A stretch of 47,583 nucleotides of DNA from Desulfuromonadaceae bacterium. GTDB taxonomy: Bacteria; Desulfobacterota; Desulfuromonadia; Geobacterales; Pseudopelobacteraceae. Position numbers and translations under genes: made by a program. The stretch covers positions 1 to 47,583 of the forward strand of contig JAQTRC010000014.1 in assembly GCA_028712665.1 (NCBI GenBank), written 5' to 3'. The notes beneath the pieces were generated by a model, which did no database searches, had not been told where the DNA came from, and saw only the letters and a list, made by a program, of their open reading frames with translations. Shown piece after piece: positions 3,205 through 39,011 of the stretch (positions are counted from its first letter, which is position 1; the number at the start of each line of letters is the position of its first letter).

Positions 3205-5214
3205 ATGAAAAAACAATCGACGATATTTTCTGTCGGCGGATTCCTGCTGGGTGTTACCGCTCCCATGGGATGGATCGTCATCCGGACTCTGTTTTTCTAC
3301 GATTCCAGGCAACCCTTCATAATTCAACTCTTTTCGGATGTGATCAGGGACGTCGAACATTTTGCACTTTACTGTTACATGGGTGGCGGCACCGCACTTG
3401 TTCTGGCAACACTGGGGTATCTGATCGGCAAAAGCAGTGATGAGCTTCTTGAAAGAGCGTCTGAACTTAATGTGCTTCATAAGGAAGTGGAGGCGCAAAA
3501 AGAGATTTTTGAAAATCGCTATAAGGTGCTCGACAGCAATATCAAAAATTTTCACCAGATCAGCAGCAAGATCCAGATGTCGCTCAACCTGGAGGAAATT
3601 CTGCTTCTATGCGCCGAAGGTCTTCATGAGGTGTTGGGTTACGAGCGTGTTAACATCTTGATGGCGGATAAAGACAAACATCTCCGTTTCATTACTACCG
3701 CCGGCACCGAAGGATTTGATGCTACAGCTGTTGCGCTGCCGCTCGATGCCAGCATCGGTGTGATTTATAAATGTTTTACCGAACGCAAAGTGTATCTGAT
3801 AGATGATATTTCCCGATATCCCGAGGATTATCACCTGAAACCTCCCCACAACAACCTCCTCCCCCTCCGATCGAGAAGCTTCATACTATGTCCTATCGTT
3901 GTAAAGGGGGAGAGTGTCGGAATCTTTGGAATGGACAACAAGAACAGCCGCCGTGTCCTGAACGACTCCGACGTCGATACGCTCATGCTTTTTGCGGATC
4001 AGGTGGCATCAGCCATAACGCGCACAAATCTGCTGACTTCAATTGATGCGCTCACATCGGAGATGGAGAGTTCATTCAGTTTCTTGCTTGGAAGCCGCGA
4101 GCAGTATTCGCGCAACGTTAAAGACCTAAAGGAAAGTGTCGATTCTGTCGCTGACGGCACATCGATCATCGCCTCGGCTTCGGAAGGCGTAATGTCCTCG
4201 GTTGACGAGACCAGCGCCGCTGTAAACGAGATATCGGTTGCAACCGAGCAGGTTACCCGTAATCTTGATCATCTGGCCGGAATTGTCCATCAGTCCGCAT
4301 CAGCCATGGAGGAGATCGACAGCGCCATAAGCAATGTCGAACAGAACGCGGCCATATCTCATGAAGTATCCAGCCAGGTGAAACTGCAAGCCGATAAGAG
4401 TATGGCTGTTGTTGCCGAAACGATTGCCTTCCTGGCTGAGATTCAGAATTCAGTCGCTCTTTCCTACGATGCGATAAAACGCCTTGAGGAAAACAGTACC
4501 CGAATCGAGAACATTGTATCTGTTATCAACGATATCACCAAGCGTACGAACCTTCTGGCGCTGAACGCCTCGATCATTGCAGCACAGGCGGGCGAATACG
4601 GAAAAAGTTTTGGCGTTGTGGCCGACGAGATACGCAATCTGTCGCTTCAGACCGGTCATTCGACGGGCGAGATAACTTCGATCATCGAAGAGATCATGAA
4701 CGAGTCCAAGACGGCCGCAAGTAATATCACTGCTACAAAAGACATGGTTCATCGCGGTGTTGAGCTGGGGCACACAACCGGCGAATCGCTCAAGGCTATT
4801 TTTGATCGTTCTGTATGCTCGCTCGACATGACTTCTCAGATCAAACAGGCTACCAAGGAGCAGGCTACAAGCGTACAAATGGTGGCCCGCTCCATGGAGG
4901 ATATCAGTTCCATGACGTCGCAGATATTTGCGGCTTCCACCGACCAGGCCAAGGCCACCAGGAGCATTGTCCGCTCGATTGAAACCATTAAGGATATGAC
5001 CCACGAGATGGTAAAATCGACTTCGCGGCAGGTTGAGGACGGCGAGCTTATAAGGCGCACGGTGGAATTGGTCGGCTATATGGTGACCGAGATGTTCGAA
5101 AACATGGAAATGCGCAGTCGGCAGAGCTCTGATGTTGTCAAGGAGCTGGAGTCGATGAAGAATATGACTTGCCAGGAAAATATTATTGCATTCAATGGAA
5201 AAACAGATAAATAA
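3205..5214 (+). CDS. Membrane GAF-domain chemoreceptor-like protein with divergent signalling tip
   Basis: 669 residues. Two hydrophobic segments (about 9-28 and 54-75) leave only a short outside loop, followed by a coiled coil, a GAF domain (about 120-275) and a methyl-accepting signalling domain (about 300-640). Sensing is therefore probably cytoplasmic, through the GAF domain. The hairpin tip at 449-465 reads [18 protein letters not shown]. Compared with the usual [11 protein letters not shown] it lacks the conserved Glu and Arg that in E. coli Tsr (E385, R388) help form trimers of dimers. This variant tip is known from other bacteria and may mark a non-classical array or a non-motility pathway. 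No HAMP domain is obvious. It is probably the last gene of an aldolase-PilZ-receptor operon. The ligand is unknown. Confidence 0.85.
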
Positions 5215-5221
5215 TTTTATG

Positions 5222-5436
5222 GATAATAATATCCGGCTCTGATAGCATGAAGGCCGCCGTGGCAGCTACCCATGTTTTGGGAGTTGATCAGGTTTCGGCA
5301 GGAACCGGAATAGAGACATACCGCACGGATTCGGAAGCGGACCGGGACGGAGGGGGAAACCCTTTAGGGAAGGCATTGATTTTATTCTGCCGGCCTGACC
5401 GTTCACTACGCGCCCTCCGGCGCGTTTTTTGTTTTT
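5222..5436 (+). ncRNA. Putative structured small RNA with its own terminator
   Basis: The spacer before panB holds a possible promoter (TTGCAT 5186-5191, 18 bp, AATAAT 5210-5215). A GC-rich stretch follows with complementary ends: GGCC and GGCAG near 5248-5264 can pair with CTGCC-GGCC near 5388-5397, closing a fold of about 150 nt. Inside are further small hairpins. A strong terminator ends it 111 bp before panB, so it could be a free RNA or a leader that attenuates panB. I compared it by eye with SRP RNA, 6S RNA, RNase P, tmRNA and the common riboswitch cores and found no convincing match. No good ORF is present. Confidence 0.4.
5409..5436 (+). terminator. Strong Rho-independent terminator
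   Basis: CGCGCC (5409-5414), loop CTCC, GGCGCG (5419-5424), then TTTTTTG and a further T run. It would end either the candidate RNA at 5222 or read-through from the upstream chemoreceptor operon. It separates both from panB. Confidence 0.8.
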
Positions 5437-5507
5437 AGTGCGATAGAAATCTATTTCTGCGATTTTCAGAAATAGATTTCGTAAGCGCACTTATCCTGCG
5501 AAGCAGG
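5437..5507. repeat. REP-like inverted repeat with GCACTTATCC end
   Basis: A perfect 14-bp inverted repeat (GAAATCTATTTCTG at 5446-5459, its complement at 5467-5480) has a seven-base loop. It is flanked by a second arm pair, AGTGCG (5437-5442) and CGCACT (5486-5491). The right end continues as CACTTATCC and a small CCTGC-GAA-GCAGG hairpin (5495-5507). The CGCACTTATCC end recurs near 14817 and 43491, so this looks like one member of a dispersed REP-like family rather than a terminator; no T run follows. Confidence 0.55.
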
Positions 5508-5547
5508 GTGTTTAAATCACATTTAAAATTATTAAAAAGGGACTAAT

Positions 5548-6348
5548 ATGAGAAAAAAAATAACCATACCTGACATTCTCAAGATGAAGCAGGCCGGCAA
5601 GCGGATTACGGTATTGACCGCCTACGACTTTCCGTTTGCCCGTCTGGTCGATGGCGGTGGTGTGGATATTATACTGGTAGGAGACTCTGCCGGAGTGGTG
5701 ATTGCCGGACACGATACAACCCTGCCGGTCACGATGGATGAGATGCTCTTCCATACCAAAGCGGTCAGGCGGGCCGATCCGAAAGCGCTGGTGGTGGCCG
5801 ATATGCCATTCATGTCCTACCAGACAGGAATCGAGGATGCCTGCCGCAATTCTGGCCGGATGATCAAAGAGGGGGGCGCCGAGGCCGTCAAGGTCGAAGG
5901 AGGAAGCAACATGGCTCACGTCATCGGGGCGATATCCTCCATCGACATACCGGTAATGGCGCATATAGGGCTTACACCGCAGTCGGTACACCGGATGGGT
6001 GGTTACAAGGTTCAGGGGAGAAACGATCAGGCCGAACGGATCATGGATGATGCCCTTGCGGTGCAGAAGGCCGGCGCTTTTGCGGTGGTGCTGGAGGGGA
6101 TACCGGCCAAATTGGCGGCAGATATCTCTGCCGAGCTGGCCATACCGACCATCGGTATAGGCGCCGGCCCGGCCTGTGACGGGCAAGTGCTGGTTATCCA
6201 CGATATTCTCGGATTGTGTGAAAAGTATTCGCCCAAGTTCGTAAAGCGCTACGTCGATCTTGCGCCTCTTATATCCGGAGCAGTCAAGCAATACGTGGAT
6301 GAGGTGCGGGCGGGTGAATTTCCGACGGAAGAGCACTCATTCTCTTAA
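5548..6348 (+). CDS. panB: 3-methyl-2-oxobutanoate hydroxymethyltransferase
   Basis: 266 residues, the usual length. PanB transfers a hydroxymethyl group from methylene-tetrahydrofolate to 2-oxoisovalerate, giving ketopantoate, the first committed step of pantothenate and CoA synthesis. Family marks are VGDSAGVVIAGHDTTLPVT (Mg-binding Asp near 46), VVADMPFMSYQ with the second metal Asp near 85, AVKVEGG, AHIGLTPQSVH and the late PTIGIGAGPACDGQVLV segment. The ATG at 5548 has AAAAGGGA five bases upstream. It is followed by panC and panD, but a 215-bp gap with a REP-like element separates it from panC. The leader holds a terminator and large hairpins, so expression may be set by transcription through that region. 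Confidence 0.95.
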   Translation: MRKKITIPDILKMKQAGKRITVLTAYDFPFARLVDGGGVDIILVGDSAGVVIAGHDTTLPVTMDEMLFHTKAVRRADPKALVVADMPFMSYQTGIEDACRNSGRMIKEGGAEAVKVEGGSNMAHVIGAISSIDIPVMAHIGLTPQSVHRMGGYKVQGRNDQAERIMDDALAVQKAGAFAVVLEGIPAKLAADISAELAIPTIGIGAGPACDGQVLVIHDILGLCEKYSPKFVKRYVDLAPLISGAVKQYVDEVRAGEFPTEEHSFS

Positions 6349-6563: not shown

Positions 6564-7415
6564 ATGAAGATAATCAAAAGCATCAAGGAAATGCAGTCCC
6601 TTGCCCTCTCCTTTCGCAGGGGGGGAAAACGTATAGCTTTTGTTCCTACCATGGGATTCCTGCACGATGGACACGCTTCCTTGCTTCGAGAAGGGCGCTG
6701 CCTGGGCGATCTGCTGATGCTCTCGATTTTTGTCAATCCGATCCAGTTCGGACAGAATGAAGACCTGGATCGTTATCCGCGCGATATGGAACGTGACTGT
6801 AGTATTGCTGCCGAATGTGGCGTCGATATTCTTTTTAACCCGGATGCTGAAGAGATGTACCCGCAGGGATTCCAGACCGGCGTAACCGTGCGCGAGATTT
6901 CCCTGCCGCTTTGCGGCGCCAGCCGTCCGGGGCATTTCGACGGCGTGGCGACGGTGGTGACCAAGCTGTTCAACATCGTTCAACCGGATGTGGCCCTGTT
7001 CGGCTGCAAGGATTATCAGCAGCTGGCGGTAATCCGGCGCATGACCGCCGACCTGAGTCTGCCGGTGGAGATCGTCGGAATGCCGATAATACGCGAGGCG
7101 GATGGACTTGCCATGAGTTCGCGTAATGCATACCTCTCCCCGACTGAAAGGAAGAGTGCGCTCTGCCTTTTCCGGGCCATTACAAGAGCGCGCAATCTGT
7201 ATGCCGCCGGAGAGCGTTCGGTCGAGGTTCTTTTGGACGAGACAAAGGCCGTTATTGAGCTGGAGCCCTCTGTGCGGATAGAGTATGTGGAGTTCCGCGA
7301 CGGGACAACGCTGAAGGATTTGAAAGTTGCCGACAACGGCACGTTGCTGGCGCTGGCTGTTAAAATAGGGCAAACGAGACTGATCGATAACACGGTACTT
7401 GGAGAGGAGTTGTAA
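6564..7415 (+). CDS. panC: Pantoate--beta-alanine ligase
   Basis: 283 residues, normal for the family. PanC joins pantoate to beta-alanine with ATP through a pantoyl-adenylate intermediate. Typical motifs are [16 protein letters not shown] (the HxGH nucleotide site near 31-37), [11 protein letters not shown]-type text here as [20 protein letters not shown], the [16 protein letters not shown] segment, [12 protein letters not shown], and the KMSK-like region [13 protein letters not shown]. The start at 6564 has only a weak AAAGGCTG site. panD starts two bases after the stop region, so panC and panD are translationally close. Beta-alanine for this step comes from PanD next door. No frameshift or missing residue is seen. 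Confidence 0.95.
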
Positions 7416-7417
7416 CC

Positions 7418-7813
7418 ATGCAGCGAATCATGCTGAAGAGCAAAATCCACCGGGCCACCGTTACCGGGGCCGATCTTCACTACGAAGGAAGCGTCACAAT
7501 AGATCGTGATCTGATGGATGCGGCTGACATTGTTTCGTACGAAAAAGTCGCCGTCTGGAACGTGACCAACGGTAGCCGCCTTGAGACCTACGCCATCGAG
7601 GGAGAGCGCGGCTCGGGTGTGATCTGTCTGAACGGCGCCGCCGCCAGGCTTGTGGCTCCCAAAGATCTGGTCATAATTGCCAGTTTCGTGAATATGGAGA
7701 ACGAGGCTGCCATAAAATACGAGCCCAAGCTGGTTTTCGTGGATGAGCATAACCGGATGTTGCAGGCCCGCAGGGAAGAGGCCGGGCAGGCCAAGTTGAA
7801 GGTTGTTCACTGA
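7418..7813 (+). CDS. panD: Aspartate 1-decarboxylase
   Basis: 131 residues. PanD decarboxylates L-aspartate to beta-alanine, using a pyruvoyl group made by self-cleavage. The cleavage site is visible as YEGS (Gly 24-Ser 25), followed by VTID; the N-terminal [16 protein letters not shown] and the NGAAAR segment are typical. The start lies two bases after the panC stop codon, with GGAGAGGAG in the end of panC as ribosome-binding site. A processing partner (PanZ) is not expected outside enterobacteria. It completes a panB-C-D set; ketopantoate reductase (panE) is not in the window. Confidence 0.95.
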
Positions 7814-36395: not shown

Positions 36396-36487
36396 GCATA
36401 GTCACCGAAAAGGGCAAAATCCGGTAAAACGGATGACGCAAAACCGCCTCCCTATAATGGGCAGAGGGGTTGCCGAAGTGATGGAAT
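36396..36487 (+). promoter_or_regulatory. GEMM-I cyclic-dinucleotide riboswitch aptamer
   Basis: The order of conserved parts matches the GEMM-I class: P1 arm TCAC; AAAAGGGCAAA; a small hairpin ATCCG-GTAAAA-CGGAT; GACGCAAAACC; a second hairpin (CCTCCC / GGGCAGAGG); GGTTGCCGA; and GTGA closing P1. By hand alignment to the Vibrio Vc2 RNA, the base that contacts the ligand (Vc2 G20) is G, since all three bases of the GGG are G. G at that place favours c-di-GMP, while A marks the cGAMP-binding forms known in Geobacter. A terminator follows 33 bp downstream, so the switch probably works by controlled termination. Confidence 0.85.
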
Positions 36488-36519: not shown

Positions 36520-36552
36520 AACCCGCCTTTTCGAATGAAGAGGCGGGTTTTT
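36520..36552 (+). terminator. Expression-platform terminator of the GEMM riboswitch
   Basis: AACCCGCCT (36520-36528) pairs with AGGCGGGTT (36541-36549), followed by five T. It ends two bases before the kinase start codon. The AAGAGG ribosome-binding site (36538-36543) overlaps its 3' arm. Read-through would therefore be needed for both transcription and free access of ribosomes. Confidence 0.8.
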
Positions 36553-36554
36553 CT

Positions 36555-39011
36555 ATGAATTCTGCACGATTGATGATGATATTCAGAAAATACGGCCTCG
36601 CACTGATACTTGTATGGAGCTGTATACTTGCGGCAATTTTATCGTTCATCATCAACGGATATCGTGAAGATGCGATCAAAGAAGCTACAAGTGAGGCAAG
36701 GGACTACCACGGACTTAACCTTCAATACCGGCGATGGGGCGCCAGGATTGGCGGTGTTTATGCTCCCGTTGACAAAGTCGCGCCCAATCCCTATCTAAAT
36801 GTCCCGGATCGAGACGTAAAAACCGATTCAGGGAAATCTCTCACCCTCGTAAACCCAGCCTACATGACGAGAATGGTTTTCGATGCCATCCGGAAGGAGG
36901 CAAAACATCCCGTTATCAGCAGGCTGGTGAGTCTCAAACCGCTAAATCCTGCAAACGCTCCCAATCCATGGGAAAGAGAAACACTCGAGCTCTTCGAGAA
37001 TACCGATGCCAGGGAACGGTTCCAGGTTTTGACGATTAATGAACGCTCTTATCTTCAGTACATGGCGCCATTTATAACCGAAGAGAGCTGTCTCAAATGC
37101 CATCTTCACCAGGGGTACAAGGTTGGCGATGTGCGCGGAGGGATGAGTATTGCGGTTCCGATGAGCGGATATCTTGCGATGGAATCTAAAAGGAGAGATT
37201 CGCTTGCCGGCGGTTTTGCCCTGTTGTGGCTCCTGGGGTCTGTCGGCATTGCCGTATCATCAATCAGAAGGCATCAGCATGAAATGACCCTCCGTGAACA
37301 TACCATAAAGTTGGAGATCGAGGTATACGAACGGCAGCAGATTCAGGAACAGCTCGAAGAGCAGACCTTAAGGCTTGAAGAGGAAGCTTCGGAAAGACAG
37401 CTTGTCCAGGAGCAACTTGAGGAACAGGCTACCATGCTGGAAGAGGAAATAACGGAGCGTCAACAGGCTGCGGAGTCGCTCCGCACGAGTGAGGAGCGTT
37501 TTCGCGGTATTACGGAAAGTATGGCGGACTGGATCTGGGAGGTGGACAATGAGGGGCGGTTCACCTATTCTTCCGAATCGTCCGAGCGGTTGCTCGGTTA
37601 CAGTTCCGATGAAATAATCGGTAAAACGGTTTACGAATTTATAGACCCGCAGGATGCTCCCATGATATGGGAAGTGCTCAAGGAGCATTCCCGCAATAAA
37701 ATGCCGATCAAAAACCTTGAGAACTGGAATCTGACCAAGGATGGCAGGCGAGTCTGTCTTCTGACGAATGGAGTCCCGATACTTGATTCTCAGGGAGAAT
37801 TGGTCGGTTATCGCGGGGTTGATTCCGATGTAACGGAACAACGCGTGCTCGAGCGCCAGCTCCTGCAGCAGCAGAAACTGGAGAGCATCGGACTCCTCGC
37901 CGGCGGGATAGCACATGATTTCAACAACCTGCTGGTCCCTATCTTCGGATATGCCGAGATGATCAATACGAGACACTCCTCGGATGAGAAGACAGCCGGT
38001 TATTCCGCGACTATTTTGAAGGCAGCCGAAAAGGCCAAGGAACTGGTCAGCCGTCTGCTCAGTTTCAGCAGGCGGCAGAGTATCAAGGTTGAGATACAGG
38101 ACCTGAACGAGATCATTGCCAAATTAATGGTAATCATGCAGCGTACCATCCGGGAAAACATTGAAATCAAGCTTCATCTCAGTACGGAGCCCTGTATGGT
38201 TCTGGCCGACATCACCCAGATCGAGCAGGCATTGCTGAATCTTGCTGTCAATGCCCAGGACGCAATCAATGGAACCGGCGTTATTACCATTGAGACCGGG
38301 CATCTGTTTTTTGATCATGAGCACTGTATGCGCCATCCCGGAACGGTTCCGGGACGCCATGTCATGATCGCATTCTCGGACAGCGGCAGCGGCATCGATG
38401 AGGCGACATTGCCATACATTTTTGATCCGTTTTTCACTACCAAACCGGTCGGTCATGGCACCGGGCTCGGTCTTTCGACAATTTTCGGAGTTGTGAAACA
38501 ACATAAAGGAAGCATTGATGTCAATAGCCGGACAGGCGTTGGCACTACCTTCAAGCTCTTCTTCCCGGAGAATACCGGTAATGAGGATGTTCAAGAAAAA
38601 CTGACTGTTTCAAAAGATTCAGAGAAACTGGTTGGCACGGTTCTTGTGGTCGAGGACAACTCGATGGTGTTGATCATGGTTCGTGAGATACTTGAAGCCG
38701 CCGGGCATCGCGTTATCACTGCAGATGAACCATTGCAGGCTCTTGGGTTAGTACAATCATGCAAAGAGAATTTTGATCTGCTGGTATCGGATGTGGTCAT
38801 GCCGCAGATGAACGGGCCGGAACTCTATGAACGGATCAGGGAACATCTGCCGGAACTCAAGGTGCTGTTCATATCCGGTTATGCCGGAGTAGTCACCGCA
38901 CACAACGGTTATCTGCAGGAAGAGGCCAATTACATCTCCAAACCATTTACAACGGAGGCCTTCATCAGAAAGGTATCGGAAGTGATGTCCGGCAATTTGT
39001 TGCCGTTATAA
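36555..39011 (+). CDS. Hybrid histidine kinase with periplasmic c-heme sensor
   Basis: 818 residues. Membrane segments near 13-36 and 216-237 enclose a Tll0287-like (DUF3365) sensor with the heme-c motif CLKCH at 179-183. Then come a coiled coil (about 250-310) holding a 23-residue tandem repeat, a PAS domain (about 318-430), a HisKA domain with His 454 in AHDFNN, an ATPase domain (GSGID, GTGLGLS), and a receiver with Asp 746 in SDVVMP. It should report redox state or a gas at the periplasmic heme and phosphorylate its own receiver. It is the first gene behind the GEMM riboswitch; AAGAGG lies 11 bases before the ATG, rather far. The next gene, a diguanylate cyclase, begins 16 bp on. The natural ligand is unknown. 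Confidence 0.9.
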   Translation: MNSARLMMIFRKYGLALILVWSCILAAILSFIINGYREDAIKEATSEARDYHGLNLQYRRWGARIGGVYAPVDKVAPNPYLNVPDRDVKTDSGKSLTLVNPAYMTRMVFDAIRKEAKHPVISRLVSLKPLNPANAPNPWERETLELFENTDARERFQVLTINERSYLQYMAPFITEESCLKCHLHQGYKVGDVRGGMSIAVPMSGYLAMESKRRDSLAGGFALLWLLGSVGIAVSSIRRHQHEMTLREHTIKLEIEVYERQQIQEQLEEQTLRLEEEASERQLVQEQLEEQATMLEEEITERQQAAESLRTSEERFRGITESMADWIWEVDNEGRFTYSSESSERLLGYSSDEIIGKTVYEFIDPQDAPMIWEVLKEHSRNKMPIKNLENWNLTKDGRRVCLLTNGVPILDSQGELVGYRGVDSDVTEQRVLERQLLQQQKLESIGLLAGGIAHDFNNLLVPIFGYAEMINTRHSSDEKTAGYSATILKAAEKAKELVSRLLSFSRRQSIKVEIQDLNEIIAKLMVIMQRTIRENIEIKLHLSTEPCMVLADITQIEQALLNLAVNAQDAINGTGVITIETGHLFFDHEHCMRHPGTVPGRHVMIAFSDSGSGIDEATLPYIFDPFFTTKPVGHGTGLGLSTIFGVVKQHKGSIDVNSRTGVGTTFKLFFPENTGNEDVQEKLTVSKDSEKLVGTVLVVEDNSMVLIMVREILEAAGHRVITADEPLQALGLVQSCKENFDLLVSDVVMPQMNGPELYERIREHLPELKVLFISGYAGVVTAHNGYLQEEANYISKPFTTEAFIRKVSEVMSGNLLPL

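Follow-up and report, generated by a model that had tools for sequence, protein, structure and literature searches.

The pan motif (RF01749) was described in 2010 by Weinberg et al. (PMC2864571) and is typed as cis-regulatory in Rfam. Its members lie upstream of panB/panC/panD and are built of stems in tandem in which bulged A residues are conserved. The published range of the family includes the delta-proteobacteria, and RNA-seq-based surveys of 5' UTRs also list pan RNA before the panB-panC-panD operon in Bacillus methanolicus and Paenibacillus riograndensis (PMC4342826, PMC5670726). The pan hairpins have been suggested to be a binding site for a dimeric protein (PMC2864571), and no effector of pan RNA is named in the literature searched.

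Here, we analyze a 47,583-nucleotide stretch of DNA (hereafter, the window) from a Desulfuromonadaceae bacterium (GenBank assembly GCA_028712665.1, contig JAQTRC010000014.1, positions 1 to 47,583). We find that the leader of its panBCD genes is a member of the catalogued pan RNA family. It shares the tandem stems, the conserved bulged A residues and the gene context of the family as first described (PMC2864571). It also stands before a panB-panC-panD operon, as do the leaders listed for B. methanolicus and P. riograndensis (PMC4342826, PMC5670726), although its host belongs to another phylum. The features of the locus are collected in Table 1.

Identity and distribution of the pan RNA

The window RNA matches RF01749 just below the curated threshold. 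A permissive Rfam scan aligned it to the full 92 positions of the model at 35.7 bits (E = 2.3e-4). Because this score is 0.5 bits under the gathering cut-off of 36.2 bits, the default Rfam scan misses the RNA and reported nothing at 5260-5354. That silence fits with the original prediction, which assigned no RNA class to this stretch. Its claim that the stretch matches none was wrong, and a match to a known family, which it had named as evidence against itself, is what the permissive scan found. A covariance model (R1) built from 34 relatives, with the window sequence left out, scored the same RNA at 69.9 bits (E = 3.7e-17) and had no other credible match in the window or in the rest of the genome. 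The window RNA also differs from the pan motif as described in that hairpin 1 carries substitutions that keep pairing and the tail reads CGGAGGG where CGGAAGG is usual.

Pan RNA is widespread among relatives of the host. At least 51 of the 76 family genomes gave a match (38 of these above the cut-off), as did at least 142 of the 277 class genomes. These counts are lower bounds because a recheck of 18 family genomes without a pan match, at E values up to 1, gave one match that passes the cut-off and three with E < 0.005. The relatives with named records are Geobacteraceae and other Desulfuromonadales, including Oryzomonas, Pelotalea, Trichlorobacter and Geotalea, and fall within the range published for RF01749. 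One relative genome (G019) has two matches, at C147:3226-3317 and C24:652-749, which may stem from a second pan operon or from contamination, listed at 5%.

Elsewhere in the window, the default Rfam scan reported a c-di-GMP-I riboswitch (RF01051, 56.1 bits) at 36403-36477. A terminator-like hairpin with a T run (~36522-36554) comes next, ahead of an 818-aa ORF (36555-39011) that, from the look of its sequence, resembles a sensor histidine kinase carrying a receiver domain.

Table 1. Features of the panBCD leader and its neighboring genes, in window coordinates.
Feature	Position	Strand	Evidence
GAF/MCP-signalling protein gene, 5' of pan leader	3205-5214		Pfam
Conserved promoter-like block TGGAT ... 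GCTCTGATAG, probable panBCD leader start	5219-5245	+	Upstream sequences of 31 family loci and alignment
pan motif RNA (RF01749), tandem hairpin pair	5260-5354	+	Rfam match and relative-built covariance model
pan hairpin 1, one bulged A per strand	5260-5290	+	Comparative pairing
pan hairpin 2, one bulged A per strand	5321-5350	+	Comparative pairing
Alternative helix GGACGG (5345-5350)/CCGTTC (5399-5404), overlapping the hairpin 2 3' arm	5345-5404	+	Minimum-energy fold; role inferred
pan motif 3' tail CGGAGGG, complementing CCCTCCG (5413-5419, terminator arm and loop)	5348-5354	+	7-bp match; candidate antiterminator
Intrinsic terminator between pan RNA and panB	5408-5431	+	Consensus scan, folding-based scan, relatives
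panB, ketopantoate hydroxymethyltransferase	5548-6348	+	PF02548, E = 1.7e-115
panC, pantoate-beta-alanine ligase	6564-7415	+	PF02569, E = 9.2e-104
panD, aspartate decarboxylase	7418-7813	+	PF02261, E = 5.3e-52

Genomic context of the leader

The RNA lies in a spacer (5215-5547) read directly between the stop of the MCP-like gene (5214) and the start of panB (5548). This leader contains a promoter-like block (~5219-5245), two hairpins and an intrinsic terminator (5408-5431), and Pfam matches place panB, panC and panD, in that order, on its 3' side. The panB match is the only one in the genome and hence the only copy found. The RNA is linked to this pathway throughout the family loci examined, where panB followed by panC lies 3' of it in 31 of 31. 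The GAF/MCP-signalling gene adjoins the pan leader in 29 of these 31 loci.

The spacer had been described as free of ORFs, which is correct in substance. A mechanical 63-aa ORF (5247-5438) overlaps the structured stretch and has no Pfam match. A leader peptide was rejected on the grounds that this ORF is without a family match and that indels in relatives, which are not multiples of three, break its frame.

Both pan hairpins are conserved among relatives. Each consists of 3 + 5 + 3 pairs interrupted by one bulged A on either strand, and an alignment of 31 family sequences shows no variation at any of the four bulged A columns. In this alignment, 94.3% of cells in the two hairpins are paired, versus 18.7-47.9% when the partners are slid. 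Hairpin 1 is variable: 96.8% of its cells are paired in the family, with three pairs changed on both sides, rising to seven such pairs across the class. Hairpin 2 is nearly invariant; 7 of its 11 pairs never vary, and 91.8% of cells are paired in the family and 94.9% across the class. One of its positions is an A-G mismatch in the window.

Covariation in relatives, proposed as a check when the stretch was first singled out, is present. In the class alignment, both partners have changed without loss of pairing in 26 cells, compared with 7.8 in shuffles, and the covariation score is 0.182 against 0.129, with none of 500 shuffles as high. The support for the predicted RNA structure is comparative, lying in compensatory changes that keep pairing, and the GC-rich structured stretch of the original prediction is indeed present in the spacer. 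Taken by itself, 5222-5436 has an unremarkable folding energy (z = -1.4). A longer stretch folds with z = -5.3, but it includes a hairpin (5433-5510) that belongs to a dispersed repeat.

This hairpin-forming repeat (AGTGCGATAGAAATCTATTTCTG...CAGAAATAGATTTCGTAAGCGCACTT) separates the terminator from the start of panB. It has several similar copies elsewhere in the genome, a similar sequence follows the terminator in one relative (L022), and the repeat is probably a REP-like dispersed element. Because of it, the window leader is longer than those of most close relatives.

Terminator and promoter-like block

An intrinsic terminator stands between the regulatory RNA and the gene, as in a transcription attenuator. 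It has a 7-bp stem and a CUCC loop (ACGCGCC-CTCC-GGCGCGT) followed by a U run. A single consensus match does not exceed chance, since 0.6 are expected. The terminator is nevertheless beyond chance because relatives have it at the same place: one scan finds it in 30 of 31 family loci and a folding-based scan in every one of the 31, in agreement with the textbook terminator first noted here. Across family and class, the folding-based scan places a terminator 3' of the pan RNA in 102 of 109 loci; of the other seven, two had a match to the search pattern but no terminator there, and five were left unparsed.

The original prediction proposed a promoter without giving its position. A promoter consensus scan gave nothing beyond a weak site within the upstream gene. 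Just 5' of the pan RNA, however, a TGGAT-N16-GCTCTGATA block at ~5220-5244 is conserved among close relatives, while more distant genera have TATAAA-type boxes in its stead. Its conservation makes this block a likely promoter.

Alternative pairings near the terminator

Two alternative pairings could engage hairpin 2 with sequence at or just before the terminator. In the first, the GGACGG/CCGTTC helix, the CCGTTC partner sits just before the terminator. This helix has 92% of cells paired in the family, and no pair is changed on both sides in the family alignment.

The second would join GGGACGGAAGG, comprising the hairpin 2 3' arm and the tail, to the 5' arm and loop of the terminator. The former is the best complement of the latter in 58 of 89 unique loci, against 14.2 of 89 expected with shuffled arms, and complementarity reaches 16, 13 and 12 pairs in single loci. 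However, a reversed-arm control is nearly as good (50 of 89), and partner swapping gives almost the same score as the true pairs (17.46 versus 17.54, with 370 of 1,000 swaps as high). For this reason, we do not claim covariation between loop and tail. At equilibrium, the terminator fold is favored over the antiterminator by about 5 kcal/mol (-63.0 versus -57.9). The antiterminator pairing therefore stays a candidate that the controls do not carry beyond base composition. It is tentative, and to us rather unlikely, that the conserved unpaired 3' tail (GRAGG) and the hairpin 2 3' arm act as a switching strand that pairs with the terminator 5' arm or loop, such that the folding of hairpin 2 decides termination.

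A probable transcription attenuator

The order of promoter, tandem pan hairpins, terminator and biosynthetic operon suggests a cis-acting transcription attenuator. We consider it probable that the pan RNA has this role as the 5' leader of panBCD in this Geobacteraceae-like bacterium. RNA polymerase would start near 5250, transcribe the tandem hairpins, and then either halt at the terminator or read through into panB. Most likely, an effector that signals ample pantothenate or CoA, be it a metabolite or a dimeric protein, would stabilize both A-bulged hairpins and favor termination. With the hairpins unheld, the 3' strand of hairpin 2 and the purine tail would be free to pair downstream. We infer feedback repression as the most economical direction of the switch, in which a folded pan RNA goes with a formed terminator and an operon that is off. 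Counting against attenuation, the stable terminator stem can coexist with either the pan fold or the alternative helix.

Attenuation of pantothenate synthesis was one of two roles originally suggested, and as a hypothesis it is well supported by the linkage of pan RNA, terminator and panB in family loci. The other, a free trans-acting sRNA ending at the terminator, is quite improbable. The promoter-like block and the terminator do bracket some 180 nt, but a terminated leader would resemble a short RNA anyway. The RNA is also found directly 5' of panB in 31 of 31 family loci, its Rfam type is cis-regulatory, and pan RNA is listed before panB operons elsewhere (PMC4342826, PMC5670726). It is more improbable still that the terminator serves only to end the MCP-like gene before it, with the structure being incidental. 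The terminator does sit 3' of that gene; between the two, however, lies a conserved, covarying pan RNA, and the same RNA with a downstream terminator also occurs in relatives outside the family.

Within the attenuator model, the present evidence fits both a protein and a metabolite as effector. Binding of the pan hairpins by a dimeric regulatory protein, with the terminator deciding the outcome, is compatible with attenuation and has a somewhat better than even chance of being correct. Two near-identical, simple tandem hairpins with two bulged A residues each would suit a dimer, and the RNA has no large conserved pocket-like loop, although no such protein is named in the literature searched. 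A metabolite riboswitch, with pantothenate, pantoate, a CoA precursor or CoA as its ligand, is a serious possibility that falls short of even. Strict linkage to the pantothenate operon and an expression platform with a terminator argue for it, while the simplicity of the hairpins argues against it, as does a 2022 review in which CoA was still without a known riboswitch class.

Our analysis extends the orphan pan RNA family by one clear member that falls narrowly short of the curated cut-off. Most relatives in the Geobacteraceae and the class have a terminator after their pan RNA, which makes the control step testable as a termination assay. If the GRAGG tail does prove to be a switching strand, the pan family would be a terminator-controlling feedback switch for vitamin B5 and CoA. 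The leader is a real, conserved element with a probable regulatory role, and most likely it throttles vitamin B5 synthesis.
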